Assembly (NCBI GenBank): GCA_913048385.1
Contig: CAJWVZ010000014.1
Coordinates: forward strand, 1 to 64,000
DNA length: 64,000 nucleotides
Origin: an uncultured Gammaproteobacteria bacterium
GTDB lineage: Bacteria; Pseudomonadota; Gammaproteobacteria; Pseudomonadales; Pseudohongiellaceae
Direction: 5' to 3'
Shown: positions 5,204 through 63,499 of the stretch, piece by piece
Layout of the letters: each line of letters begins with the position of its first letter
How positions within the stretch are numbered: the stretch's first letter is position 1
The notes under the pieces: generated by a model
The model's database searches: none
What the model was told of the DNA's origin: nothing
Seen by the model: only the letters and a program-made list of their open reading frames with translations
Translations under genes and position numbers: made by a program

Positions 5204-7882
5204 ATGGATAGCGCGGAACTGAATTCTGGTCAAGATATTGTAAACTTTAAACTTTCCGCAGAAAGCGCTGATGCGTCAGCGAAGCCAATCTTGCGCATCA
5301 GAGAGATGTTAAGAACCGTAACCAAAAATCTCGACTCGAGATTTATCGCCGGCGAACCAATCGAACGTATTGTTCGTGATCGCGCAAGATTAATAGATCA
5401 ACTTCTCGGTTTTCTCTGGGCAGAGCAAGATTGGCCAAATCAGAATATAGCCCTTTTAGCGGTCGGTGGGTTTGGAAGGAGTGAGTTGTTCCCATATTCT
5501 GATATTGACTTACTTATTCTCACTAAAACAGACGATAACGAGCATCTTAAACCGGCCATCTCCAATTTTATCACTGCGTTATGGGATGTTGGCTTGGAAG
5601 TCAGACAAAGTGTTCGATCACTGTCGCAATGCTCAGAGGAATCACGCAACGATATAACAGTTGCAACATCTCTAATGGAGTCTCGCACATTAGCAGGTTC
5701 AAAATTTTTACAACACGAACTTGCTGACCTTATCGAGACAGAGAAAGTATGGCCTGTCAAAGAATTCTTTCATGCTAAGGTGCACGAACAAGAAAATCGA
5801 CACCAAAAATACGACGATGCAGACTATGCGTTACAGCCAAACGTTAAAACCTCACCAGGAGGTCTGAGGGACATACAAACCATTTCTTGGATTGCGATGC
5901 GTCAGTTTAGAGCCTCTACCTTTGACGACTTTGTTAACCTTAACCTGTTAAACGATGCTGAAGACCGGATGATCAGAGAAGGTCGAAGCTTTTTATGGAG
6001 AATACGTTATGGTCTTCACTTGATCGAAGGGCGAGGCAATGACCGGTTAACCTTTGACAAGCAACGAGAACTCGCAAAGATTTTCGGTTACAAAGATGAC
6101 TCACTCACTCTTGGCGTAGAGAAATTAATGAAAGAGTACTATCTTTCGGTCTCGAAGCTTCGAGAACTAAATGACCTTGTTCTGCAACATTTCGAAGAAA
6201 CAATTCTCAGAGCTGACACTCCCGATAAACTATGGAAAGTTAATAACCGACTAAACGTACGTAATAATTATATCGAAGTTATTCACGAGAAGATTTTTCA
6301 AAGGTACCCATTTACCTTGATCGAAATCTTTGTGAGCATTGCACAAAACACCTTCATAATGGGAATCACGGCACCGACCATCAGGCTTATTCGAGAAAAC
6401 CTGAATCTTATAGATGAAAAGTTTCGTAGAGACATCCGTTGCACATCTCTTTTTACCGAGCTACTAAGGTCCCCACACAAGCTGACGCTCCAACTAAGAA
6501 GAATGGCTCGGTACGGGATTCTTGGTCGTTATCTTCCCGAATTTGGAAAAATAATGGGGCAGATGCAGCACGATATGTTTCATATTTACACTGTGGATGC
6601 TCATACATTTCAAGTTATAGAAAACATGAGACGTTTTTCTTATGACTCTGCCTCAAATGACTTTCCTATCGCATCCAGAATAGTTAAAAAGCTACCAAAA
6701 ATTGAACTACTATACATCGCTGGCCTATATCACGATATTGCAAAAGGCAGAGGCGGCAATCATTCAGAACTAGGCCAACAAGATGCGATGGATTTCTGTC
6801 TTCGACATCACCTAAGTAAGTGGGACGCTAAGCTAGTAGCTTGGCTTGTAAAGCATCATCTTTTAATGTCGATGACAGCACAACGAAAAGATATTTCAGA
6901 TCCCGAAGTCATAAAAGAATTTGCCGAAAATATCGGAGACAAACTTCATCTCGACTATTTATATGCTCTTACAGTCGCTGACATTCGAGCAACCAATCCA
7001 GAACTTTGGAATAGCTGGCGCGCCTCGTTAATAGCTCAACTATACAGTCATGCCAAAAAAGCTCTAAGACAAGGACTCGAAAACCCTATTGATAGGAAAG
7101 ATTTGATAGAGGACAAGAAAGATGAAGCCTACAAAATACTCACCCATAACGAAATAAAAGACGATGCTATCGCATCTGTATGGGAGAATGCAGATGATGA
7201 GTATTTTATTCGTGAAACCTCACATAACATTGCGTGGCATACTGAAGAAATCATAAATTTTAACAAGCTCATCCCTCTTGTCTCAATTCGAGAGCTAAAT
7301 CTAAATGAACAGGAAATGGTAACTCAAATTTTTATTTACACGAAAAACAGTGACTTTTTGTTCGCTAATATGACATTAGCTATCGAAAGGCTAGGATTGA
7401 ACATTCAAGGCGCTCGCATTTTTACCTCTCATAACGACAACTGCATGAATACTTTTATTGTTTTAGAAAAAAATGGCAATTCAGTTGGAGAAAATTTGAG
7501 TCGAATTCATGAAATAACCGACATTATCCAAACCACTATTTTAAATAAAGGGCCGATGAATTTAAAACCAAGATTTCGAGACTATTCAAACGTACGCCTG
7601 TTTAGCAAAGAGATCTATGTGCGAATAATCAACTTCCGTAAGAAGGCATTTTCAACACTTGAAATCAATTGCCCTGATTATCCTGGAATTTTAGCATTTA
7701 TTGGGAGCGTACTAGCCGAAGAAGACCTGCGAATCAGAGACGCAAGAATCACCACGTTGGGCGAAAGAGTTGAAGATTTATTTTATGTGACTGACTCACA
7801 GAACAATGTTTTAAAAGGGGCAAAAAATTTACGAACAATAGAAAAAAGAATCAAAGCAAAACTGGAAAAAAAAATAGCTTAG
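5204..7882 (+). CDS. glnD: PII uridylyltransferase / uridylyl-removing enzyme
   Basis: GlnD senses glutamine and uridylylates or deuridylylates PII proteins, so controlling nitrogen assimilation. The protein has about 892 residues, the normal length. In order it shows the nucleotidyltransferase core GGFGRSELFPYSDID (about residue 88), the central helical domain, an HD phosphohydrolase domain (LYHDIAKGRGGNHSELG near residue 508) and two C-terminal ACT domains (about 700-790 and 810-890; CPDYPGILAFIG in the second). I take ATG 5204; an in-frame TTG three codons upstream is possible. Neither has a strong ribosome-binding site. In Pseudomonas dapC follows, but here an ArsC-like gene follows directly. 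Confidence 0.96.
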   Translation: MDSAELNSGQDIVNFKLSAESADASAKPILRIREMLRTVTKNLDSRFIAGEPIERIVRDRARLIDQLLGFLWAEQDWPNQNIALLAVGGFGRSELFPYSDIDLLILTKTDDNEHLKPAISNFITALWDVGLEVRQSVRSLSQCSEESRNDITVATSLMESRTLAGSKFLQHELADLIETEKVWPVKEFFHAKVHEQENRHQKYDDADYALQPNVKTSPGGLRDIQTISWIAMRQFRASTFDDFVNLNLLNDAEDRMIREGRSFLWRIRYGLHLIEGRGNDRLTFDKQRELAKIFGYKDDSLTLGVEKLMKEYYLSVSKLRELNDLVLQHFEETILRADTPDKLWKVNNRLNVRNNYIEVIHEKIFQRYPFTLIEIFVSIAQNTFIMGITAPTIRLIRENLNLIDEKFRRDIRCTSLFTELLRSPHKLTLQLRRMARYGILGRYLPEFGKIMGQMQHDMFHIYTVDAHTFQVIENMRRFSYDSASNDFPIASRIVKKLPKIELLYIAGLYHDIAKGRGGNHSELGQQDAMDFCLRHHLSKWDAKLVAWLVKHHLLMSMTAQRKDISDPEVIKEFAENIGDKLHLDYLYALTVADIRATNPELWNSWRASLIAQLYSHAKKALRQGLENPIDRKDLIEDKKDEAYKILTHNEIKDDAIASVWENADDEYFIRETSHNIAWHTEEIINFNKLIPLVSIRELNLNEQEMVTQIFIYTKNSDFLFANMTLAIERLGLNIQGARIFTSHNDNCMNTFIVLEKNGNSVGENLSRIHEITDIIQTTILNKGPMNLKPRFRDYSNVRLFSKEIYVRIINFRKKAFSTLEINCPDYPGILAFIGSVLAEEDLRIRDARITTLGERVEDLFYVTDSQNNVLKGAKNLRTIEKRIKAKLEKKIA

Positions 7883-35051: not shown

Positions 35052-37265
35052 TTACGACTCTAAATCAAAGCGATCTAACGTCATAACTTTCACCCACGCA
35101 GCCGCAAAAGCTTCAACAAACTCTGAAAGAGCATCGTCCGAAGAGTAGTGCTCAGCGATGGCCCGAAGCTCAGAATTTGATCCGAAAATTAAATCCACCG
35201 GCGAGGCCGTCCACTTAAGCTCTCCACTAACTAAATCACGACCTTCATACACCCCTGCCAAACTCGCAGACTGAGTCCACTGCGTGGAAAGGTCAACTAA
35301 ATTCACAAAGAAATCATTGGTCAGTAAGCCGGGCTGCAACGTAAAAACTCCGTGACCGGAGTCTTTAGAGGAAACGTTCAAAACACGCAGCCCCCCTACT
35401 AGTACAGTCATCTCTGGCGCCGTTAAGCCCAACAAAGCCGCTTTTTCGACAAGCATTTCTGGCGGCGAGCGCGGACTCTCCTCGCTAAAGTAATTTCGAA
35501 AACCATCAGCCATCGGCCTTAGAAGTGAAAACGACGCTATATCAGTCTGATCCTGCGACGCATCCGTCCGACCGGCTACAAAAGGCACATCAATTTCAAC
35601 TCCTGCTTTACCTGCTGCGGACTCGATAGCGGCAGCGCCACCAAGCACGATAACGTCTGCCAGCGAAATTTTCTTTCTGCGATTATTCGAATTAAAGTTG
35701 CTCTGTATTTCCTCCAACACCTCTAACACTCGATTGAGCTGTTCTGGATTGTTTACTTCCCAGCTCCTTTGGGGAGCCAGACCAACTCTCGCCCCGTTCG
35801 CACCTCCACGCATATCGGTGCCTCTATATGTAGAGGCCGAGGCCCATGCTGTCTCAACTAGCTCCGCAGTCGTCAGCCCTGACTCCATAATCGCCGTTTT
35901 TAGGCGAGAAACGTCACGTTCAGTGACAAGATCGAAATCGACGGCAGGAACAGGGTCTTGCCAAACAAAAGTTTCAGCAGGCACAAGTTTCCCCAAGTAC
36001 CTCGAGCTTGGACCCATGTCTCGGTGCGTCAGTTTGAACCACGCACGCGCATAAGCGTCAGAGAACTCTTCCGGATTCTCAAGCCAGCGAGAAGTAATTT
36101 CCCTGTAAGCCGGATCTACCCTGAGAGCCAGATCCGTAGTGAACATCATAGGCGCATGACGCTTAGAAGAATCGTGCGCATCAGGCACTAAATTTGAAGC
36201 AGCGCCATCAATAGGCTTCCACTGCACCGCACCCGCTGGACTTCTTGTTTGCTCCCACTCATACCCATATAAATTAACGAGGTAGTCGTGAGTCCACGCC
36301 ACTGGGTTACTGGTCCAAGCGCCCTCCAAGCCACTTGTAATGGTATCGGCGCCTTTCCCGCTGCCGTATTTATTCAGCCAACCCTTCCCCTGCGATTCAA
36401 TTGACTCTCTCTCTGGCTCTGAACCGACATAGTCATCTGGGCTTGCCGCACCATGGGCCTTTCCAAAGGTGTGTCCCCCAGCGATCAGCGCCACAGTCTC
36501 CTCATCATTCATCGCCATCCTGCCGAAAGTTTCCCGGATCGCATCTGCCGCTGACTGAGGATCTGAATTGCCCCCGGGACCTTGCGGGTTCACGTAGATT
36601 AATCCCATCTGACTCGCACCGAGAGCCCCGATCAGCTTCCCGTTTTCGTCTCTTCTGTCTGCGGCCAACCACTCCCCTTCTGGCCCCCAATTCACGTCCT
36701 CCGGCTGCCAAAGATCAACACGCCCTCCTGCAAAGCCAAGTGTTTCGAATCCCATGGAGTCCATCGCGACGGTACCTGCCAAAATCATTAAATCCGCCCA
36801 AGAGATTGCACTGCCATATTTCTGTTTTATGGGTAAAAGTAATAGACGCGCTTTATCTAGATTTGCGTTATCCGGCCAGCTGTTGAGAGGTGCAAATCGC
36901 TGCATGCCTCCATCGGAACCTCCTCGACCGTCTATTGATCGATAAGTTCCAGCACTATGCCAAGCCATGCGGACAAAAAATGGCCCGTAGTTCCCATAAT
37001 CCGCCGGCCACCACTCCTGTGAAGTAGTCATTACTTCAGTGAGGTCATTGACCAAATCGTCTAAATTTAATGCTTGGAAGGCGTCGGCATAATTAAATGC
37101 CCCTCCCGATGGGTCAAACGAAGAATCTTCTCTTAGCGGCTCAAGATTGAGCCGATTGGGCCACCAATATTCGTTGATCGCCAACTGATCTTGAGCGCCG
37201 CTGATAGTTACGGCACCAAGTCCTATCAAGCACATCACGGATGACAATAAAATTTGTCTAGTCAT
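35052..37265 (-). CDS. katG: Exported catalase-peroxidase
   Basis: This haem enzyme decomposes hydrogen peroxide and has broad peroxidase activity. From ATG 37265 (GAGGAG site) the protein has 737 residues and two tandem peroxidase-like halves. The active-site Arg99-Trp102-His103 (RMAWHS), the Tyr in [10 protein letters not shown] and the Met in FGRMAMND form the Trp-Tyr-Met adduct of the family. The haem-ligand His is in [12 protein letters not shown]. The first 24 residues ([20 protein letters not shown]) are a signal peptide, so the enzyme is probably periplasmic, like KatP of enterohaemorrhagic E. coli. No oxyR is adjacent. Confidence 0.93.
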
Positions 37266-37458
37266 TTCTTTCTCCTCAATCAACTTTCATACAGTAAACA
37301 TCAAGACACTATGAAACAATATTCGACTACGTCATACAGATAAAGTGATTTATTTCGATCACTTTGATCGAAATACCCAATAACTAGTAATAAACTCCTA
37401 CGACGATTAGTTGTCTAACGCAGCATCCATATTTTCCGCGTCCCAGAAGACCGAACAA

Positions 37459-38931: not shown

Positions 38932-38956
38932 AAAAAGGGGCTGTACGCCCCTTTTT
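38932..38956. terminator. Bidirectional intrinsic terminator
   Basis: AAAAAGGGGC (38932-38941) pairs with GCCCCTTTTT (38947-38956) around a TGTAC loop, giving a GC core flanked by A and T runs on both strands. It lies between convergent genes and would end both DUF4920 and the Fur-controlled operon. Confidence 0.85.
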
Positions 38957-38967
38957 GAACGTACTGT

Positions 38968-39411
38968 TTAAAGCGAGTTTAAATATCCATCTAATCTGTC
39001 TCCAGACATGACAAATCCACTTTTCTTCTCTGCCGCAGCTGCTTTCACTGCGTCTAAGTTTCCTGCAGCTCCGACTTGTATAACGCCGACCATCGCCATC
39101 ATCATATGCGGCGTGCACTGGTAAACGTAAACTCCTTCTGCGTTCAGAGTTACCGTTACATCCTGGCTCATCCCACCGTTCCAGCTCTCTGCTCCAGCTG
39201 GTATCATCCCTTCCATTGAGGCCGAATTATGCCCAGGATTAGCTGATTTGAAGGTGACGGTGTCTCCCGGGTTAACTTTCAAAACCGCGGGCTCAAAAAC
39301 CATTACACCGTCCGTTCCTGCATTTAGCATCTGCACTTCGTGGTTGTCTGCAAAAACCACGTTTGTAAGTGCTGCTGTCAATGTAATAGCTGCCAATCTA
39401 AAAACTTTCAT
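38968..39411 (-). CDS. Pseudoazurin-like type I copper protein
   Basis: The 147-residue precursor has a signal peptide ending at FADNHE, then a cupredoxin fold. The four copper ligands of pseudoazurin are present with the right spacing: His61 (NPGHNSA), Cys99 and His102 (YQCTPH) and Met107 in MMMAM. It is thus a periplasmic one-electron carrier. ATG 39411 has an AAAGGTGG site. It is the last gene before a terminator and follows the CbiX-like lipoprotein gene by 27 bases, so it likely belongs to the same transcript. Its electron partner is unknown; the peroxiredoxin and receptor of the operon, or a c-type cytochrome, are candidates. Confidence 0.88.
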   Translation of the reverse strand: MKVFRLAAITLTAALTNVVFADNHEVQMLNAGTDGVMVFEPAVLKVNPGDTVTFKSANPGHNSASMEGMIPAGAESWNGGMSQDVTVTLNAEGVYVYQCTPHMMMAMVGVIQVGAAGNLDAVKAAAAEKKSGFVMSGDRLDGYLNSL

Positions 39412-39438
39412 GTTTTCCACCTTTCAATTATCGTTTAT

Positions 39439-40467
39439 TTACCCACCTGCTAGAAGCCGCCGATGGATTTCTTGAGCTTGGTTCTTAATCCAAAGAGTTA
39501 CATTTTCGTGTGGCAGGAGGCCCAGACCGTTCGACCGGTAATCGAGTCCGCGCAGCAATTCCGCATACGGACCAAATCCACTCACTCTAAACGGGATTAC
39601 TATAACAGATCTGCCTGCTAAATTGGCTTCCCTTACGTAGTTGCGTATAGCCACTTCAGCGTCATTTCTCTTTTCGGGCCAATCCTCACGTAGTGTGAAG
39701 GTCGATACGTCGTGTAACTGCAATTTGGTTTGTACTTTGGACAATATTTTTTGGATTCTGTTTATCCAGAGCAGATTCTCATCGTCATCGCCCGGTCCGT
39801 GAGCAATGACCACTACGTCCTCGGAAGCCGGCTGCTCACTCAGACTCTCAATGCGATCGCCAATTACGGCTTCCATCTCTTCAGCAGCAGACAGACCAAT
39901 GGCGCTCATCCCTATTTTAGCCGACGATTCTACTCTCCAAAAACTTTTTGACATGAATGCGGAGTGAAGCTCCTCTCTAGACTCGTTGTCTCCAATGTTA
40001 ATTGTCTGACTATTTTTACTAGAAAATTCAGGCGCCCCCTCAGCTAAACCCAAAATCTTCGCTGTCCGCTCTCTCCAACTATCACCTGAAATAAACAATC
40101 TTACGACTGCGACGTTTTTGACGCCCTTCGACTCCAGCTCCTCAAGCCCCCCTTGCAATGAGGCAGCGTCAGCCATTCCGAATGCAATAGCCACAGGATA
40201 TTCCTCTCTTAATGGCAAAACTGCATCCTCCACTTGCTTATTCCAAACCTTGCCGCCACCGTGGGCCATGATCAGAATTCCATTTGCATTCTCATTAGCA
40301 GACGACATGTCTGCGTGCTGTTCAAAATCAAATTTGCCAGAACTCTGAGCTATCGATCTCAACTCAGATGGCGTAGCGCAGTTAGCTAGAATCAAACAGA
40401 GCGCAGCCATTACCAACAATACTTTCCATACCTTCAGAAAATTCACCTGAAACATATTAGAACTCAT
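39439..40467 (-). CDS. Lipoprotein with two-lobed CbiX/class II chelatase fold
   Basis: The 342-residue protein has a signal peptide with the lipobox LANC (Cys30). The mature part consists of two similar lobes like sirohydrochlorin cobalto/ferro-chelatases. Lobe one has ILIMAHGGGKVWNKQVEDAV (His69) with GLEELESKGVKNVAVVRLFIS; lobe two has VVVIAHGPGDDDENLLWI (His223) with a C-terminal IVIPFRVSGFGPYAELL. The AHG histidines correspond to the metal-site His of the family. CbiX proteins are cytosolic, whereas this one should be outside the cytoplasm. It overlaps the end of the TonB receptor gene by 11 bases. A role in metal insertion into, or removal from, a tetrapyrrole is inference. Confidence 0.75.
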   Translation of the reverse strand: MSSNMFQVNFLKVWKVLLVMAALCLILANCATPSELRSIAQSSGKFDFEQHADMSSANENANGILIMAHGGGKVWNKQVEDAVLPLREEYPVAIAFGMADAASLQGGLEELESKGVKNVAVVRLFISGDSWRERTAKILGLAEGAPEFSSKNSQTINIGDNESREELHSAFMSKSFWRVESSAKIGMSAIGLSAAEEMEAVIGDRIESLSEQPASEDVVVIAHGPGDDDENLLWINRIQKILSKVQTKLQLHDVSTFTLREDWPEKRNDAEVAIRNYVREANLAGRSVIVIPFRVSGFGPYAELLRGLDYRSNGLGLLPHENVTLWIKNQAQEIHRRLLAGG

Positions 40468-42694
40468 ACTTATAAGAAACTCTTAAATTGATTCCAGGCT
40501 GAATCGCATTCTGGAGATTTTCGATCGAATCTTTGCTGAGACCCTGTATAGATGACCAACGAGCATATTCCTCATCCAATATATTAAATACCCCACCCCT
40601 GAGCGAATGGGACTCATTAAAAGTATAGTAACCCAGCAGATCAGCAACAATATAATTGTCTCCAGTCACCACTTCGTCGGATGACACGCGATCTTTCCGT
40701 TGCACTAGCGTCATAAACAACTCAGCCCCCCAATTGTTTGCTGGACTGTCGTAACTTGAACTCACAACCGTAGTCACCGGCTGGACCGAGTCTATCGGCC
40801 TATCTGTAATGTCGTTGGTTCCGCGAGCGTAAGCGATGGAACCCTGAATATTCCAATCATCAGTCAAATAATAAGCAGAAACTACTTCCAAGCCTTTTAT
40901 GGTCGCAGCACCCGAGTTTTGATCCTGATACAAAGCTATCCTCCCCGCAGTACCTACAGCTTTGCTCTCGATAAAATCACTATACTTATTCTGAAAAGCA
41001 GAAATACTTAAAAACGCATTGTCTAAACTTTGCCTCATACCTACCTCAAAACTGTCACTTGATTCAGCTGAAAGATTAGCATTGGGAACGGTGGCATAAC
41101 TGTAACCCAAATTCACAAAAGCCTGATTTGACTCATCAAAATTTGGTGGCCGATAGCCCTCGGCATATTGTAAAAAGATTGAAGACTGCGCGCCGAAGTC
41201 GTAGATTATTCCGAGGCTTGCCGACGTCGCATCCACATCAACTTCGGAGAGTGAAAATCCACCAAAACCAGCAATGATGCCGCTGCTGTCCACTGATGGA
41301 TCAACCCTTGGAGTCATCTTGTAACTGTCATAGCGTAAACCGGGGATTATAGTCAGCCCGAGTCCAGGGAAAGAAATCTCATCTTGAACATAAAATCCTT
41401 GACGCTCCGTTGTGGTATCCGGAAAGGTTTTATTTGGAAAATTTTCTGTTGGAGCCATCGGGTAGGCAGAAATTTCACAAACAACTGTACCTGAACTTAT
41501 CTCCGTCTCACATCGGTTTCGAGGGCGCTCTGTGTCAGTTTCATCGTGATTAAATCCGTACGCAAATGTATGTGTAATCGCACTGCCAACATACTCTTTA
41601 CGCAAATTCAACCCGAATGCAAACGTATCCTGATTAAATTCAAAATCCGTAACACGATCTGCAGATGTTCCCGCAAAAGAACGTGGATTACGCGGATCTA
41701 TGAACGAATAACTGGTCCTATTCTGCTCAGTATGCTGCAGCGCATCTGTATTTTGCTTTTGAATTTTAAGATCAACCGCGTCAAAGAGTGCCGAATCCCC
41801 TTCCCACGAGTAACCAATGCCAAACCTATCCCTGTTCGTGGTGTCACTACCTACCGAGGAAGAGACACTGCGGCTAAGGTCACTTAACATCATCACATCA
41901 TTTTGCTCTTCGTACTGATCGACGAGGAAACTAAGTTGCTGGGAGTCTGAAATATCCCAAAAAGCCTTAATTAATAACCCTTCGGAGTCGCCATCCTGCG
42001 GATTCAAAGAACCCTTACCATTCACATCAAACTCAGAAAACTCTCGTGCTGTATACTGAATCATCGTACCAAAATTTGCAGCTTGCCAAGCTCCAGTAAA
42101 ACCTACCCTCGTCATTTCATTTGCCGAGGCATTCGAAGTTTGCACAGAAAAATAGGTTCGGTTTTCTCCATCGACATAATCTCGCGGGGTTTTCGTGCGA
42201 AGTAAAACAGCACCTCCCATCGCATCAGCTCCATACAAGACAGAGGAAGGGCCACGTATTATTTCAACAGCTTTTAGATCATCCATCTCAAAACTATCCT
42301 TGCCGTAAGATGAAGGCCCTGCGCCGTAAATGTCGCTACTTCGAATGCCGTCTATCACAGTCAGAACGCGGTTTCCACCGATTCCTCGAATAGAAAACCC
42401 CTGATGGCCTCCGCGACTGGCAGTTTCCATACTCACGCCAGGCTGGTATCTCGCTAAATCATCAATGTCATTGACGAGCTGACGCTCAATCTCTTGCTCA
42501 GAAATAACAGAAACCGTCCCCGCAATACTGCTGATAGTGCGAGAGACGCGCGTTGCGCTGACTTCTATTTCTTCTATGCGAACACGTGAATCCTGCGCAA
42601 CTATCGTGCCTGATAAAATAACTGAAGAGGCAAGTAGAGAGCGTATAAAACTTGATTTACGTGACAACAATATTCTTTGTGAATCCTCACACAT
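40457..42694 (-). CDS. TonB-dependent receptor, haem/haemoglobin family
   Basis: The 745-residue outer-membrane receptor has a signal peptide (cleavage near IVAQDS). A TonB box-like stretch EEIEVSATR is followed by the plug TVSVISEQEIERQL...GGHQGFSIRGIGGNRVLTVIDGIRSSDIYG...VEIIRGPSSVLYGADAMGGAV. This matches the haem/haemoglobin/transferrin receptor subfamily. The beta-barrel ends in the aromatic C-terminal YKYEF expected of outer-membrane proteins. It overlaps the chelatase-like lipoprotein gene, so the two are translationally coupled. Haem, or another tetrapyrrole, is the likely ligand. Confidence 0.88.
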   Translation of the reverse strand: MCEDSQRILLSRKSSFIRSLLASSVILSGTIVAQDSRVRIEEIEVSATRVSRTISSIAGTVSVISEQEIERQLVNDIDDLARYQPGVSMETASRGGHQGFSIRGIGGNRVLTVIDGIRSSDIYGAGPSSYGKDSFEMDDLKAVEIIRGPSSVLYGADAMGGAVLLRTKTPRDYVDGENRTYFSVQTSNASANEMTRVGFTGAWQAANFGTMIQYTAREFSEFDVNGKGSLNPQDGDSEGLLIKAFWDISDSQQLSFLVDQYEEQNDVMMLSDLSRSVSSSVGSDTTNRDRFGIGYSWEGDSALFDAVDLKIQKQNTDALQHTEQNRTSYSFIDPRNPRSFAGTSADRVTDFEFNQDTFAFGLNLRKEYVGSAITHTFAYGFNHDETDTERPRNRCETEISSGTVVCEISAYPMAPTENFPNKTFPDTTTERQGFYVQDEISFPGLGLTIIPGLRYDSYKMTPRVDPSVDSSGIIAGFGGFSLSEVDVDATSASLGIIYDFGAQSSIFLQYAEGYRPPNFDESNQAFVNLGYSYATVPNANLSAESSDSFEVGMRQSLDNAFLSISAFQNKYSDFIESKAVGTAGRIALYQDQNSGAATIKGLEVVSAYYLTDDWNIQGSIAYARGTNDITDRPIDSVQPVTTVVSSSYDSPANNWGAELFMTLVQRKDRVSSDEVVTGDNYIVADLLGYYTFNESHSLRGGVFNILDEEYARWSSIQGLSKDSIENLQNAIQPGINLRVSYKYEF

Positions 42695-42824
42695 ATTTTT
42701 CGCCTTTTATGAATTAAAAAATTTGTGACATCTGAGTGATTGTTCTTAACAGCAAACAGAGCCTCTCGACTTTTACGAACAATCGCAAACTGTTTAAGGG
42801 CTAAGCCTGTCGCGTATAACCGAC

Positions 42825-43424
42825 TTACAACTTCGTTTCGTTGTCTCGAAGATAACTCGAGACACCTTCTGACGTCGCTACCATTCCGACATCTCCATCT
42901 TTCCAACCGGCTGGGCATACCTCACCGTGCTCTTCAGTAAATTTTAAGGCATCGAGCAGCCTTAACATCTCGTCAACGTTCCTCCCTAAAGGAAGGTTAT
43001 TTATCGTGGCGTGCTGAATAACTCGATCCCTATCGATCAAAAAAGATGCCCGAAACGCAATTCCCTCTGAATTAGCAACTCCGTATGAGTCAATTATTTC
43101 GCGCTTCACATCAGCAACTAATGGAAATTCAACTGAGCCTATCCCGCCCTTGTCTGTTGAAGTATTTCGCCAAGCCAAATGTGAGAACTGAGAATCAATA
43201 GATACACCTATAACTTGTGCACCTTTTTCCCTAAAGGAATTGACTCTATTGTTGTGAGCAATAATTTCCGACGGGCACACGAACGTAAAATCCATGGGGT
43301 AAAAAAACAGGACTATATAGCTTCCCTGATAATCCGATAGTTTAAAATCTTCCTTAATTGTGCCGTCCGGCATTACCGCAGCTGCCTGAAAGTCTGGTGC
43401 CTGTTCACAAATTGCTATACTCAT
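42825..43424 (-). CDS. Typical 2-Cys peroxiredoxin
   Basis: The 199-residue thiol peroxidase reduces peroxides. The peroxidatic Cys50 is in FYPMDFTFVCPSE and the resolving Cys in GEVCPAGW; the C-terminal region is not extended by a YF motif. It differs from classical AhpC in the HATINNLPLGRNVDEMLRLLDAL type and is closer to the eukaryote-like/Tsa group. ATG 43424 has a GAAGGT site. It follows the small Cys protein closely, and 130 bases separate it from the TonB receptor gene. Iron import produces peroxide stress, so its place in a Fur unit makes sense. Confidence 0.92.
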   Translation of the reverse strand: MSIAICEQAPDFQAAAVMPDGTIKEDFKLSDYQGSYIVLFFYPMDFTFVCPSEIIAHNNRVNSFREKGAQVIGVSIDSQFSHLAWRNTSTDKGGIGSVEFPLVADVKREIIDSYGVANSEGIAFRASFLIDRDRVIQHATINNLPLGRNVDEMLRLLDALKFTEEHGEVCPAGWKDGDVGMVATSEGVSSYLRDNETKL

Positions 43425-43435
43425 CTGTTCTACCT

Positions 43436-43678
43436 TCAATAAAGTTTAATGTTTACTCCAAATTTACTGAGCGTTGTTTTTGGGCTCGGTATTTTTTTCC
43501 TAAAGTAGTCCTCTAATATCATCTGAGACAATGATTCATATATTTCCCGCTCCATTCGAAAACTCATTGGCCCAATATGTAATGTGAACGAGTTGCAACA
43601 CTCGCAACAGGTTACCGAGGTAAACGGCCCTCTTGCGATGGTTTTTACGATGCAGGCATTGGAGTTATGAGCATCCAT
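43436..43678 (-). CDS. Small Cys-rich protein of unknown function in the Fur operon
   Basis: The 80-residue protein has no signal peptide. Its centre holds VTCCECCNSFTLHIGP, four cysteines in five positions, which suggests metal binding or a redox function, followed by the amphipathic helix MEREIYESLSQMILEDYF. ATG 43678 has an AAAGGA site; an earlier TTG would overlap the upstream gene. I do not recognise a named family with confidence. It lies between the upstream 89-residue gene and the peroxiredoxin. Confidence 0.65.
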   Translation of the reverse strand: MDAHNSNACIVKTIARGPFTSVTCCECCNSFTLHIGPMSFRMEREIYESLSQMILEDYFRKKIPSPKTTLSKFGVNIKLY

Positions 43679-43698
43679 AGACAATCCTTTTTTTAAAC

Positions 43699-43968
43699 TC
43701 AATGGAGATTTCTTAAATGCGTTTCTGAAATTGTGGAAAAGTATGTGTCAACATCAAAGTCTGGATGCATTTGCTCCCAATGCGTTTTGAGCCTTCTACA
43801 CGTGTTGCTTAATCCAGAGTTATGCAAATTAGGATGTTCTAAAACCATTTCGAAGTGTTCTACAATTGCATTTTGCAAACGCTCACATGGCTTGTTGTTG
43901 TAGCGGGTCAGCATAAAAAGTAGGGATGCGATTAATATCTCTATCGGGGGCGTTTCATGATCAAGCAT
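43699..43968 (-). CDS. Small helical protein of unknown function, first gene of the Fur operon
   Basis: The 89-residue, apparently cytosolic, all-helical protein (IEILIASLLFMLTRYNNKPCERLQNAIVEHFEMVLEHP) has no recognised family. ATG 43968 has a CGGAG site and is the first start after the Fur-type promoter at 43996-44024. Its gene is followed by that for the Cys-rich protein. Two His-rich helices (HFEMVLEHPNLHN, HWEQMHPDF) could bind a metal, but this is only a guess. Confidence 0.65.
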   Translation of the reverse strand: MLDHETPPIEILIASLLFMLTRYNNKPCERLQNAIVEHFEMVLEHPNLHNSGLSNTCRRLKTHWEQMHPDFDVDTYFSTISETHLRNLH

Positions 43969-43995
43969 TTAAAGCTCCGTTGAAGTCAGAAACAA

Positions 43996-44024
43996 ATGAT
44001 AATGATAATGATTATCATTTGCAA
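43996..44024 (-). promoter_or_regulatory. Promoter with embedded Fur box
   Basis: On the minus strand TTGCAA (44019-44024) and TATCAT (43996-44001) are separated by exactly 17 bases. The segment 44001-44019 is a perfect 9-1-9 palindrome built of Fur hexamers (AATGATAAT, centre, ATTATCATT), with one more TGATAA half-site to the left (43997-44002). Fur with iron would block this promoter directly. TTGCAA is itself palindromic and could also act as -35 for the gene starting at 44085, but no good -10 is seen on that side. Confidence 0.85.
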
Positions 44025-44084: not shown

Positions 44085-44450
44085 ATGAAGCCAAATTATT
44101 CTCTCGCCGTCATCCTGATACCGCTGGCTTTGATGAGCTGCTTAGGCTCACTATCCCTCAGCTCAGCCTCAGCACAAAACAATGCTGCCGTAACAACCTC
44201 AATTCTGGATAAACAAGTGATGGGAAAGTGGGCACGCAGTTGCGCGCTGTGCCATGTCACCGGCGAAGCAAACGCCCCAAAGATGGGGGACACGAAAAAT
44301 TGGAATGATCGCTTGAAAAAGAGCGAAGAGGAAATTTTGCAAAATGTCGTGTATGGATACAATTCCATGCCGCCCTTAGGCTATTGCATGTCCTGTGAAA
44401 TTTCAGATTTCAAGGCTATGATTGCGTTTATGGCAGGGGGAGAATTTTGA
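44085..44450 (+). CDS. Cytochrome c5-like protein
   Basis: The 121-residue precursor has a signal peptide ending near SASAQ and one haem-binding CALCH motif (Cys53, Cys56, His57). Met95 in NSMPPLGYC is the likely sixth ligand. The C-terminal YCMSC pair is the extra disulfide typical of cytochrome c5. It should be a periplasmic or lipid-associated monohaem electron carrier. The stop overlaps the TTG start of the lactone-oxidase gene, so the two proteins are co-translated and likely exchange electrons. Confidence 0.9.
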   Translation: MKPNYSLAVILIPLALMSCLGSLSLSSASAQNNAAVTTSILDKQVMGKWARSCALCHVTGEANAPKMGDTKNWNDRLKKSEEEILQNVVYGYNSMPPLGYCMSCEISDFKAMIAFMAGGEF

Positions 44451-45808
44451 AAAAAACGTCACGAAGAGTATTTTTAGCAGCGAGCGTGAAAGCCGCTCTT
44501 TTTAGCGCTTACGCATCTGGGTCGTCGATTATGTCGGGCCCTACACCCTGGAGTAATTGGTCTGGCGGTCAGACATGCCGCCCTGCCGGACGGCACGATA
44601 TCACTGATGAAGGTGAACTCCGGAAAATCCTACGGTCCTCTTCCGGCCAAATCCGGCCAGTAGGCTCTAGTCACTCTTTCAGCCCCCTTATCCCGACCGA
44701 TGGCCATTTAATTGTCGTCGATCAACTTAACCAAATTCGGAGTTACGATCAGAAAGCAATGACGGTCACCCTTGGCGCTGGAGCACGCCTTGGGGACCTC
44801 GGTGCGCAGTTAGATACTATCGGTCAGGGTATGATTAATTTACCAGACATTGACCGTCAAACAATTGCTGGAGCAATGGCCACCGGGACCCATGGAACAG
44901 GTGTGACTCTCCCCGCACTGTCATCAATGATAATAGGGCTTCGACTTGTAACCCCAAACGGCAACGTATTAAATATTGATACCAGCGATATGGAAATGCT
45001 CCATGCGGCAAGAGTTAACGTTGGAGCCCTTGGCATAGTGACCGAGGTAACCATCCAAAATAGAGAATCTTACAAGTTAAAGAAACGAGAATGGGCAGCG
45101 CCTACCGAGGATATTCTCGACAGTTTTGCGGATCTCACTAACAACCATCGACATTTTGAAATTTTTCCGCTTGTTTACTCGGACTATTCTTTAGCACTGT
45201 CAATGGATGAGACCAATGATCCGATCGGAAAAGCCGTGACCGAGCCAAGTGATGACGCTTCGATTGCTGAGTCGTTAGGATTAACCGCAAACCCAACGCC
45301 TGCGGAACGTCGAAAGCTTTCCAACATAACTGCGTCTCGTATCCAACCGAGCGAGTCAGTAGATGTATCGTATAAACTGCTATCCAATTTAAGAAATAGC
45401 CGCTTTAATGAAATGGAATATTCAGTCCCCGTGGAGGCTGGAGCTGATTGCTTGCGGGAAATTTTAAAGACAATTTATGACAAAAAGATAGATGTAGTTT
45501 TTCCCCTTGAGTACCGTTATGTTAAGGCAGACCAAGATTGGCTAAGTATGGCGTATGGCGATCACCCACACGCGACTATCTCGATTCACCGAACTGCTAG
45601 CGAAGACTTCGCTCCATACTTCGATATTATTGAACCCATTTTTTGGAAATACGCAGGTCGGCCGCATTGGGGAAAAATCCATAGCCTAAAGCATAAAGAG
45701 TTGGTCAAGTTATATCCACGATATAGAGATTTCATGGAACTCAGGAAATCTCTCGATCCATCTGGAAGATTACTCAATGCGCACTTGCGCACACTATTTA
45801 ACGCGTGA
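44447..45808 (+). CDS. FAD-linked aldonolactone oxidase/dehydrogenase, Tat-like leader
   Basis: The 453-residue flavoprotein belongs to the VAO family, D-arabinono/L-gulono-lactone oxidase group. His76 in the PVGSSHSFSP loop is the position of covalent FAD attachment in the family. TIAGAMATGTHGTG forms the second FAD loop, and the C-terminal HWGK (about residue 405) is the family's active-site box. The N-terminus SRRVFLAAS resembles a twin-arginine leader, so export with FAD bound is inferred. The TTG start at 44447 overlaps the cytochrome stop and follows a GGGGGAG site. In mitochondria, galactonolactone dehydrogenase passes electrons to cytochrome c, so the coupling here has a precedent. 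The substrate is unknown. Confidence 0.85.
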   Translation: MKKTSRRVFLAASVKAALFSAYASGSSIMSGPTPWSNWSGGQTCRPAGRHDITDEGELRKILRSSSGQIRPVGSSHSFSPLIPTDGHLIVVDQLNQIRSYDQKAMTVTLGAGARLGDLGAQLDTIGQGMINLPDIDRQTIAGAMATGTHGTGVTLPALSSMIIGLRLVTPNGNVLNIDTSDMEMLHAARVNVGALGIVTEVTIQNRESYKLKKREWAAPTEDILDSFADLTNNHRHFEIFPLVYSDYSLALSMDETNDPIGKAVTEPSDDASIAESLGLTANPTPAERRKLSNITASRIQPSESVDVSYKLLSNLRNSRFNEMEYSVPVEAGADCLREILKTIYDKKIDVVFPLEYRYVKADQDWLSMAYGDHPHATISIHRTASEDFAPYFDIIEPIFWKYAGRPHWGKIHSLKHKELVKLYPRYRDFMELRKSLDPSGRLLNAHLRTLFNA

Positions 45809-61287: not shown

Positions 61288-61602
61288 ATGATAATTGCTG
61301 TGTCTCTCCTTTGGCTTGCTGCCTTAACCGCTTACTGTTCCTCTAAGCAGCAATTGTTACTTAAACGCCCCCTCTCTAAGTTATCGGGCTGGGGGGGGTT
61401 TGTAATCTTATTTTTTACTGCATGGCTGTTTCTATTAGGCAGCTACTCCTCGCTGTCAGCATTTCTGTTGGCTTTAAGTTATGTAATGGCAGCATGGCTC
61501 GCTACGATTTTTATTCTGGGACATTTCCAATTGAGCCTCTGGCAGTTTGGTTCGGCTGGCGGCGCCCTATCGATAGCTATTTTCTATATGGGCCTTTTTT
61601 AA
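61288..61602 (+). CDS. DUF3325-like small membrane protein
   Basis: The 104-residue protein has three hydrophobic segments and the length and position of DUF3325 proteins, which accompany PepSY membrane proteins in iron-related operons. The codons for its GWGGF stretch contain a run of eight G (61391-61398). The stop TAA overlaps the next start by one base (TAATG), indicating translational coupling. Confidence 0.7.
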   Translation: MIIAVSLLWLAALTAYCSSKQQLLLKRPLSKLSGWGGFVILFFTAWLFLLGSYSSLSAFLLALSYVMAAWLATIFILGHFQLSLWQFGSAGGALSIAIFYMGLF

Positions 61603-61862
61603 TGTGGGCCAAGAGTTTCGCTGGAGTATTAGGAGGACTACTGATCTCAATATCAGTGATGGCAACATTCTACTATACCCTACCACTCACTGCGGACGCC
61701 CGAATCATGATCGGATTGATATTGGGCTGGATCGTTTGGGCCGCTGTTATGGTGTGGAGCTATGCCAGTGATTGCGGAAAACAGGCTTGGGTGCGGGTGG
61801 GCGGACTTTTTTTGGTGACAGCAGGCCTCAATGCGATGCTTGTTTTTTTGGTTAGTCCTTAA
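61602..61862 (+). CDS. DUF3649-like small membrane protein
   Basis: The 86-residue protein has three hydrophobic segments: FAGVLGGLLISISVMATFYYTLP, IGLILGWIVWAAVMVWSY and VGGLFLVTAGLNAMLVFLV. This fits DUF3649-type partners of PepSY proteins. The start ATG 61602 overlaps the stop of the preceding gene by one base. The longer upstream frame overlaps that gene and is rejected. Confidence 0.65.
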   Translation: MWAKSFAGVLGGLLISISVMATFYYTLPLTADARIMIGLILGWIVWAAVMVWSYASDCGKQAWVRVGGLFLVTAGLNAMLVFLVSP

Positions 61863-61891
61863 TAACTGGCTTGTAATTCGGAGAGAACTTC

Positions 61892-63499
61892 ATGGACAAA
61901 GATTTCATCAAAAGAAATACTGAAGCACATGGTTGGCTTGGATTAATAATATCCTCAATGCTTTTTGTTGTCTTTTTCACGGGGTCAATCAGTTTCTTTC
62001 GCCACGACATCGAGCTTTGGGCTATTCAGGGGCATTTCCAATTTGATGGCTATAACCCAGCGGAATATTTGAGCGTGAGCGAAGTGTTCGAAATGACACT
62101 GTCAGGCCGATCGTACGACCCTCGAGAACCTCAGATTGTATATCCTCCTACGCGGAAAGAACCCTACTATCGAGCATACGTTAATCTCGATGAAGAAAAG
62201 GTGAGTAAAGAAAGTGAATATTTACTCATTGACCCGCGCAGTGGGCAAATTATGGGTAGCCTTGATAACTTTTTCTTGGCGGATTTTTTGTATCGATTAC
62301 ATTACAGTTTGAATCTGCCTCTAGGCAACTATCTAATTGGTTTTGTGACTCTAGCTTTTCTCTATACCATTTTTTCGGGTGTACTAATTCACGCTAAAGA
62401 CATGGTAAGAGGGTTCTTCCGTTATCGCCCTAAGGGCAGACTACGCAGTCAGCTTCTCGATATACACAATGTCATAGGCGTAATTTCCCTGCCATATACC
62501 CTCATGCTAGCGATTACAGGTTTAATATTTAATTTAGTCATTATCTATCAGGTTGCCTTCGCCTTCATTTTGTATCAGGGTGACGTTGATGCATTGCTCT
62601 CAGATGCGGGAATATTTTCATCGGCCTCTGAATGGTCGAATGAGCCTTGGGAATCCCCACCGATCGATGACCTTTATCAACAACAACTGCAAAAATGGGG
62701 CACTGTCCCTGCCCAAGCTAGGATTACAAACTACGGTGACAGCGGCGCTACTTTTGAAATCTTTGGAGATACTGCAGAGGGTTTAGGTGGACGCTACAGT
62801 ATTTCCTACAATTTGAGTGATCAGAGCATAAACTATAGTGAACCAAGCAATACGCCTAATATTGTCACTGAAGGTATTGGTGTAGTCAGCTCACTTCACT
62901 TTGGTAATTTTGCTGGTTTTGATCTTCGGGCCATATATTTCTTACTCGGCATCGCAGTTTGCGCACTGATTGTTACTGGAAATTTGCTTTGGGTTTCACA
63001 GCGCGAAGGAAAAATGAGCAGCGCAAAGCTAGTTTTTATTGATCGCTTTACACTAGCCAGCACCGCTGGGTTAGCCGTCGCCACTGCCATCTCTTTTTTA
63101 GCTGAGAGAATTCTTCCAGTCAGCATGGCTAACAGAGCTGACATGTTAGTGAATTGCTTTGTCGGTAGCCTTTTGTTTGCAACGGTCTATATTTGGTTTG
63201 CAAGAAACAGACGAAAGGCGCTGGTTAACTTACTCAGTTGTTTTTCTCTCATTTGCGTTTCAATAGTCTCCGTTGACCTTATATTTTTCAACAAGGCTTT
63301 AATGTCGGCAATCGACAGCGGTCAGATAGCCTTATTAGGTGTTGATGCTGCGATCATAATTTCCGCTGGATTGGTTGGATTCTTGACCTGGAGGTTGTAT
63401 CAGCGTGGTAAAATTCGGTCCGAGCCTGAGCCTGAGCCTGAGCCTGAGAAAAAAGCTACTGTCTTGGAAACACCAGTTTTACCCCCGGTCTCCAGGTAG
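61892..63499 (+). CDS. PepSY-associated membrane protein
   Basis: The 535-residue inner-membrane protein has the PepSY-TM layout. A first helix follows RNTEAHGWLGLI (about 8-30), a periplasmic PepSY domain (about 50-140) contains YLLIDPRSGQIMGS, and LHYSLNLPLGNYLIG leads to further helices. A second periplasmic domain follows, then C-terminal helices. Conserved His in HGWLG, FRHD, RLHYS and DIHNVIG are haem-ligand-like. Such proteins are linked to reduction of ferric siderophores or haem. The C-terminus has a short Glu-Pro repeat. ATG 61892 has a GGAGAG site. Confidence 0.83.
   Translation: MDKDFIKRNTEAHGWLGLIISSMLFVVFFTGSISFFRHDIELWAIQGHFQFDGYNPAEYLSVSEVFEMTLSGRSYDPREPQIVYPPTRKEPYYRAYVNLDEEKVSKESEYLLIDPRSGQIMGSLDNFFLADFLYRLHYSLNLPLGNYLIGFVTLAFLYTIFSGVLIHAKDMVRGFFRYRPKGRLRSQLLDIHNVIGVISLPYTLMLAITGLIFNLVIIYQVAFAFILYQGDVDALLSDAGIFSSASEWSNEPWESPPIDDLYQQQLQKWGTVPAQARITNYGDSGATFEIFGDTAEGLGGRYSISYNLSDQSINYSEPSNTPNIVTEGIGVVSSLHFGNFAGFDLRAIYFLLGIAVCALIVTGNLLWVSQREGKMSSAKLVFIDRFTLASTAGLAVATAISFLAERILPVSMANRADMLVNCFVGSLLFATVYIWFARNRRKALVNLLSCFSLICVSIVSVDLIFFNKALMSAIDSGQIALLGVDAAIIISAGLVGFLTWRLYQRGKIRSEPEPEPEPEKKATVLETPVLPPVSR

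Follow-up and report, generated by a model that had tools for sequence, protein, structure and literature searches.

Recurrent pairing of a haem-type receptor gene with one for an exported chelatase-fold protein, and a possible release of haem iron outside the cytoplasm

The subject of this study is a six-gene operon in a 64-kb window (the whole stretch of DNA that was analysed) of contig CAJWVZ010000014.1, from a Pseudohongiella-like marine gammaproteobacterium. The operon joins a TonB-dependent receptor of the haem group to a chelatase-fold protein, probably a lipoprotein and so called hereafter. Our main finding is that this pair recurs: in many Proteobacteria, as judged from sequence, gene context and a structure model, a PhuR-group receptor is genetically tied to an exported class II chelatase-fold protein behind a Fur-like box. 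The locus in the window is very probably a Fur-repressed operon for haem-iron acquisition, and the pair may act by stripping iron from haem outside the cell interior.

Results

The link between receptor and lipoprotein was followed at the best 80 of 102 candidate loci, taken from species genomes; these leave out the contigs of the closest lipoprotein homologues (P0002-P0004), and at least 10 kb is present in 60 of the 80, so that flank and contig ends limit what the loci can show. Where at least 2.6 kb of upstream sequence was available (66 of the 80), a receptor stands directly upstream of the lipoprotein gene on the same strand at 41 loci; this position next to a TonB-dependent receptor, a trait of the IhtB/FetB type, is shared by the window. 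When the loci are split by record title, the adjacent receptor is found at 41 of 52 proteobacterial loci vs 0 of 14 others. The cultured Pseudohongiella strain O18 (L117) has the adjacent pair. Fur-like sites recur upstream as well, with at least 13/19 matches to the consensus at 33 of 44 lipoprotein loci, compared with 86 of 880 random stretches from the same loci. Neighbour clusters were computed on 73 of the 80 loci. In seven of these, HemP (PF10636, from a scan of one representative) is the gene immediately ahead of the receptor, and at a locus of Pseudohongiella nitratireducens (L052, 7576-8852) the start of the lipoprotein gene is itself overlapped by a HemP-type gene, without an intervening receptor.

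A survey of 97 genomes, 61 of them of the same genus as the host (G000-G060), found the lipoprotein in 20, all of that genus and including the host itself (G000; 2.52 Mb, 37 contigs, 98.9% complete). Among the 19 others, the receptor lies beside the lipoprotein in 15; G018 and G050 have receptor fragments at contig ends by the lipoprotein, and in G007 and G037 no close receptor was found on the stretch fetched around it. The company kept by the pair varies. In G048 the receptor, the lipoprotein and the operon's two small open reading frames (ORFs), orfA and orfB, adjoin HemS, a periplasmic binding protein, FecCD and an ATPase, and G002 has HemS and FecCD on the lipoprotein's contig together with ORFs matching the remaining parts and no orfB match. 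In G084 the genes after the receptor (50% identity) encode a periplasmic binding protein, FecCD, an ATPase and a PNPOx/DUF2470 protein, and the search of this genome gave no lipoprotein; in this single case an inner-membrane importer occupies the place held elsewhere by the lipoprotein.

Other settings of the lipoprotein gene were also seen. DUF6607 (PF20311) directly adjoins it in three loci (L047:75-1202, L084:6551-7543, L095:8902-9987) and is a possible further partner. Settings without a receptor include the vicinity of ferritin (L069), of a DtxR-type repressor (L112) and of a ZIP transporter (L103). Phage linkage was rejected, since none of 10 pattern matches in viral contigs encodes a relative.

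Assignment of the receptor to the haem group, proposed in a first-pass annotation of the window, holds: it exceeds the cut-offs of both TIGR01786 (408.5 bits; cut-off 323.75) and TIGR01785 (356.5 bits; cut-off 316.85), and its closest solved structure is PhuR (8the), at 270 bits. It holds five histidines in all, and only one of them, H375, reaches 85% conservation among 34 close relatives (33/34, and 9/10 distant relatives). Receptors at loci of Alphaproteobacteria and Lysobacteraceae are distant, with about 30% identity to that of the window.

At E up to 0.001 the lipoprotein matches 1,473 database proteins (120 listed), of which P0002-P0004 are the closest among the matches listed (79-87% identity). 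Thirteen of the 22 named homologues among those listed are called sirohydrochlorin ferro- or cobaltochelatase. The structure model has the two-domain class II chelatase fold, with FetB and CbiK as structural matches; a profile of 75 lipoprotein sequences gave three sequence matches at E up to 1, and neither FetB nor CbiK is among them. The CbiX-fold lipoprotein of the first-pass annotation is therefore upheld as to fold by the model, whereas the sequence stays below the cut-off of the CbiX Pfam model (17.4 bits; cut-off 22). Some homologues carry a precomputed PF01903 assignment, and the copies in G011 and G019 exceed the CbiX cut-off. The CfbA model gives 21.3 bits vs a cut-off of 120.

Export is predicted from pattern. 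In the window protein LAN-C follows a hydrophobic stretch, the Asn at -1 being unusual for a lipobox; a lipobox-like motif occurs in 53 of 75 homologues and a hydrophobic start in 71. The overlap with the receptor gene noted at first depends on the start chosen, amounting to 11 bases with the ORF of 342 amino acids (aa) and to none with the 338-aa version that begins at the second ATG (database entry P0001). That the protein is the cell's own sirohydrochlorin chelatase was rejected because of the export signal and the haem-locus context.

The first chelatase histidine is retained in both halves of the protein (H69 and H223, each in 75/75). The position of the second histidine reads W131 in the N-terminal half (70/75, on a weak alignment to CfbA, E 0.013) and G299-P300-Y301 in the C-terminal half (75/75, by manual extension past the alignment end, the C-half alignment to CbiX being weak, hhalign 21%). 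H320, kept in 70 of 75 sequences, could stand in for the second catalytic histidine. A charged block (R260-W263, K266-R267 and D227-E230) is nearly invariant across the 75. The host genome holds a second relative, L002 (G000:C13:71343-71747; 29% identity, 343 aa), whose protein has an apparent export signal by reading and no Pfam family.

Searches of the host genome at E up to 0.001 gave no match to HemS or to FecCD, the latter present in 94 of the 97 genomes; FeoB, the PF01126 haem oxygenase, ZIP and CbiX also gave no match there. With FecCD, HemS, FeoB and PF01126 not detected, it becomes more plausible that haem is acted on outside the cytoplasm. The host encodes an SBP_bac_6/8-type binding protein, which we read as FutA/FbpA-like, and a BPD-type permease. 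Because HemH is present, haem is probably made by the cell, and imported haem would serve as iron.

The layout of the operon agrees with the first-pass description of six co-directional genes running from a Fur palindrome to a terminator (Table 1). All six ORFs lie on the minus strand, from 43968 to 38968, with the operon extending to the hairpin end at 38932, in the order orfA, orfB, 2-Cys peroxiredoxin, TonB-dependent receptor, lipoprotein, pseudoazurin and terminator-like hairpin. The predicted Fur box at its head would place the operon in the Fur regulon: the best consensus match (43998-44016) has 1 mismatch in 19, and four overlapping matches, vs 0.01 expected at up to 3 mismatches in the 64-kb window, form the only such cluster in it. 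The scanned region holds 8 hairpins of the terminator type, which is no over-representation against the 6.3 expected. A single transcript we can only infer, because a 130-bp gap splits the peroxiredoxin ORF from the receptor ORF.

Table 1. Features of the operon and of neighbouring genes in the window
Feature	Position	Strand	Basis
Fur box (predicted)	43998..44022	.	perfect 9+1+9 palindrome at 44001-44019; consensus matches
orfA, 89 aa	43699..43968	-	no Pfam family
orfB, 88 aa as called, cysteine-rich	43436..43702	-	DUF6686 13.4 bits, under cut-off 23.9
2-Cys peroxiredoxin (AhpC/TSA + 1-cysPrx_C)	42825..43439	-	Pfam; cysteine motifs read from sequence
TonB-dependent receptor, haem group	40457..42694	-	TIGR01786, TIGR01785; nearest solved relative PhuR (8the)
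Exported chelatase-fold protein, probable lipoprotein, 342 or 338 aa	39439..40467	-	structure model, export pattern
Pseudoazurin, exported type-1 copper protein	38968..39420; likely start 39411	-	TIGR02375
Intrinsic terminator-like hairpin	38932..38956	-	10 pairs + T-run
Small c-type cytochrome and sugar-lactone oxidase, divergent from operon	44085-45808	+	TIGR01679 (oxidase)
Catalase-peroxidase-like ORF, two genes off operon	35052-37283	-	N-terminal export signal by reading translation
PepSY_TM protein and small membrane partner, window end	61422-63499	+	PF03929, 194 bits

The peroxiredoxin, a 2-Cys type as first proposed, passes Pfam AhpC-TSA; against the best NCBIfam model it scores 252 bits, short of the cut-off of 301. 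Together with orfA and orfB it forms a companion module that comes first in the window and is ordered differently elsewhere. Seven of 73 loci have an orfA homologue next to the lipoprotein gene, and at L053 one is found at a distance of three genes; orfA, orfB and a peroxiredoxin (68-71% identity) are downstream of the lipoprotein gene in L075, L076 and L104, and in L107 a peroxiredoxin (52%) and orfA are upstream. An order that is reshuffled while linkage is retained suggests shared regulation of the module. Homologue searches with orfA and orfB returned 6 and 5 close proteins, none functionally named.

The last gene encodes a pseudoazurin, as proposed at first (136.2 bits against TIGR02375; cut-off 109.85), with the type-1 copper ligand pattern H, C, H, M read from its sequence. 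Its gene starts about 20-30 bases after the lipoprotein gene, ahead of the terminator. A tblastn check at E 1e-4 found no pseudoazurin at the 80 related loci, as far as their flanks reach, and a conserved six-gene pathway was rejected on this ground; of the gene order that we checked for conservation, it is the receptor-lipoprotein pair that stands. Pseudoazurin matches occur in 14 of the 97 genomes, host included, one of them weak (32%), and in 13 stretches from 12 relatives' genomes they never accompany the receptor or the lipoprotein. Counted by genome, it is present in 6 of 20 with the lipoprotein vs 5 of 41 without (p 0.15, not significant). The proposal that a blue copper protein takes part in the haem chemistry is not supported by the locus and stretch counts. 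Fur-like boxes precede pseudoazurin in two of the 13 stretches, L144 (18/19, 6186-6204) and L146 (16/19, 1450-1468, about 30 bases before the ORF); all 13 together contain three 19-mers with at least 16/19 matches, two of which are these boxes. In the excerpts consulted from one pseudoazurin paper, no Fur link was met. At L148 and L149 pseudoazurin lies beside a cytochrome c that is 39-42% identical to the one divergent from the operon.

That divergent cytochrome is followed in the window by a twin-arginine-like, flavin adenine dinucleotide (FAD) sugar-lactone oxidase. Since the cytochrome starts about 65 bases beyond the Fur palindrome, the genes on either side of the palindrome may be under iron control. 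On the other flank, the catalase-peroxidase-like ORF is a probable periplasmic KatG, to judge from its translation. PepSY_TM proteins, one of which is encoded at the window's end, can be inner-membrane ferric reductases.

Discussion

As an explanation of the whole, we lean towards Fur-repressed haem-iron acquisition with periplasmic iron release by the lipoprotein. The receptor would carry haem, or a close relative of it, into the periplasm, where the lipoprotein would take it over and most likely free the iron by reverse chelation. Whether the lipoprotein releases iron in this way or merely binds haem seems to us evenly balanced. The freed iron would then cross the inner membrane by a ferric-type ATP-binding cassette (ABC) importer, and not by HmuTUV or FeoB, both of which were not found in the host. 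The peroxiredoxin and the pseudoazurin would not be steps of haem chemistry; they may be iron-free stand-ins for haem peroxidases and for a c-type cytochrome, called up by the same iron-starvation signal. Most simply, the pseudoazurin gene would answer to iron starvation on its own account and supply a copper carrier in place of one with haem, for which plastocyanin and cytochrome c6 are the model. Of the first-pass interpretation, metal release from or exchange on a tetrapyrrole outside the cytoplasm, three parts are supported, namely iron control, the haem-type receptor and its tied exported chelatase-fold partner; the idea of six genes serving one chemistry is not.

Our findings fit into a wider set of extracytoplasmic chelatases, for which we draw on excerpts of the papers cited. 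The IhtA receptor and IhtB/FetB lipoprotein of Porphyromonas gingivalis have been described much alike (PMC10913741, PMC13402209), so a receptor with an exported chelatase is not new in principle. IhtB is CbiK-like and, in the excerpt, not PgFur-regulated (PMC10913741), whereas the window lipoprotein lies behind a predicted Fur box; the two families show no sequence match at E up to 1, and the P. gingivalis system includes an inner-membrane ABC set, IhtC-E, that the window operon lacks. A periplasmic class II chelatase is also known from Desulfovibrio vulgaris (PMC4063343). This cobaltochelatase, CbiK-P (2xvx/2xvz), is 14-16% identical to the lipoprotein, in which its metal-binding His207 has no evident counterpart; the catalytic or metal-binding pair of Pp-CbiX is His127/His187 (PMC4063343).

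Other systems resemble the operon in part. Bacteroidetes HmuR-HmuS/BtuS with FeoAB likewise combines a receptor with an extracytoplasmic chelatase-type protein, and periplasmic iron release from haem has been proposed for it (PMC6460266, PMC10100974, PMC13227078); in Bacteroides fragilis iron is stripped from haem in the periplasm and FeoAB is needed (PMC6460266). HmuS, however, is a large class I CobN-type protein, unlike the window lipoprotein, and the host genome has no FeoB match. Canonical HmuRSTUV/PhuRSTUV systems share the PhuR-group receptor, the Fur box and, in some relatives, HemP, and differ in the HemS, FecCD and PF01126 genes for which the host genome gave no match. The hemP-hemA-smlt0796-smlt0797 cluster of Stenotrophomonas maltophilia resembles the operon in layout, encoding a Fur-regulated haem receptor and then two predicted periplasmic proteins (PMC9241770). 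What sets the window family apart from the exported chelatases described is its sequence group, its apparent histidine pair, its predicted Fur control and how widely it occurs in Proteobacteria; it may work like the described systems. Among the titles and abstract openings listed by literature searches, none describes a CbiX-type lipoprotein beside a haem receptor, and a search on the marine genus with haem and iron uptake found nothing.

Several observations weigh against periplasmic iron release and the operon model built on it. The adjacent receptor is missing at 25 of 66 loci, namely all 14 outside named Proteobacteria and 11 of the 52 proteobacterial ones. Haem receptors usually have a histidine between their FRAP and NPNL boxes; the window receptor reads YRPP and VPNANL at these sites with no histidine between, and the same absence is seen in 20 of 22 receptor relatives inspected, L048 and L067 having one. 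Because the second catalytic histidine is seemingly replaced in both halves of the lipoprotein, catalysis is doubtful unless H320 substitutes. G002 and G048 have a cytoplasmic haem route as well as the lipoprotein, which is therefore not simply a replacement, and the negative searches for such a route in the host did not extend to HutZ/HugZ- or IsdG-type enzymes or to dipeptide-type haem importers. Haem-derived iron enters B. fragilis via FeoB (PMC6460266). In hand-made counts of same-genus genomes, FeoB is present in 8 of 20 with the lipoprotein vs 37 of 41 without (p 6.7e-5, kinship ignored), and in 5 of 14 vs 19 of 22 of those at least 90% complete (p 0.003, kinship ignored). A point against such proteins in general is that disruption of a CbiK-type gene left haem-iron use by B. 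fragilis unaffected (PMC6460266). Deletion of smlt0796 or smlt0797, whose products may or may not be of the lipoprotein's family, left hemin use by S. maltophilia unaffected (PMC9241770). As for the pseudoazurin, 11 of 13 elsewhere have no Fur-like box (at most 13/19), and in L144 and L146 the gap that holds the box also lies before a divergent gene, which the box may serve.

Alternatively, the lipoprotein may be a non-catalytic haem-binding chaperone that buffers haem behind the receptor and passes it to a route across the inner membrane that we did not find, a serious possibility though not the outcome we expect. The apparent loss of the second histidine in both halves speaks for such a role, as does the occurrence of HemS-HmuTUV genes alongside the lipoprotein in G002 and G048. 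Yet with FecCD, HemS and PF01126 not found in the host, intact haem would have no known destination, and the near-invariant charged block seems more than passive binding needs.

It is improbable that the lipoprotein instead exchanges or inserts Mn, Co or Zn in imported porphyrins, giving a useful or less toxic metalloporphyrin. Such exchange and insertion have been reported for P. gingivalis FetB; the window lipoprotein, however, has no His-rich linker, and iron control points to iron supply. A ligand other than haem (a cobamide, a chlorophyll product or another metalloporphyrin) would suit the missing histidine between the FRAP and NPNL boxes and the weak matches of the lipoprotein to CbiX and CfbA, both of which act on sirohydrochlorin. 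We consider this unlikely, since the HemP and HemS-HmuTUV neighbours in relatives, the haem-receptor model scores and the Fur box all point to haem. Least probable by our estimate is a working part for the pseudoazurin, passing electrons to hemin or taking them from released Fe(II) for the ferric importer: its place between lipoprotein gene and terminator and a host with a ferric-type importer and no FeoB match would allow this, but its absence from all related loci, its separation from the pair in relatives and the non-significant genome association speak against it.

If periplasmic iron release does hold, a further and more tentative step, which we regard as doubtful at present, is that with the lipoprotein a separate branch of extracytoplasmic haem dechelatases exists in Proteobacteria, one that serves a haem-iron life via a ferric ABC importer. 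Its novel active site would consist of one histidine per half with the REDW..KR and GFGPY motifs, and bacteria lacking HmuTUV, HemS, a PF01126 oxygenase or FeoB would thereby live on haem iron. In the sea, haem forms a pool of iron that is recycled (cf. PMC5225302), and our results touch the question of how bacteria without a standard inner-membrane haem permease could use it. Should the family free haem iron, it would provide a route that is widespread, needs no oxygenase and spares the porphyrin. The label of sirohydrochlorin chelatase would then stand corrected for a family whose members are exported and, in Proteobacteria, mostly encoded behind a TonB receptor.
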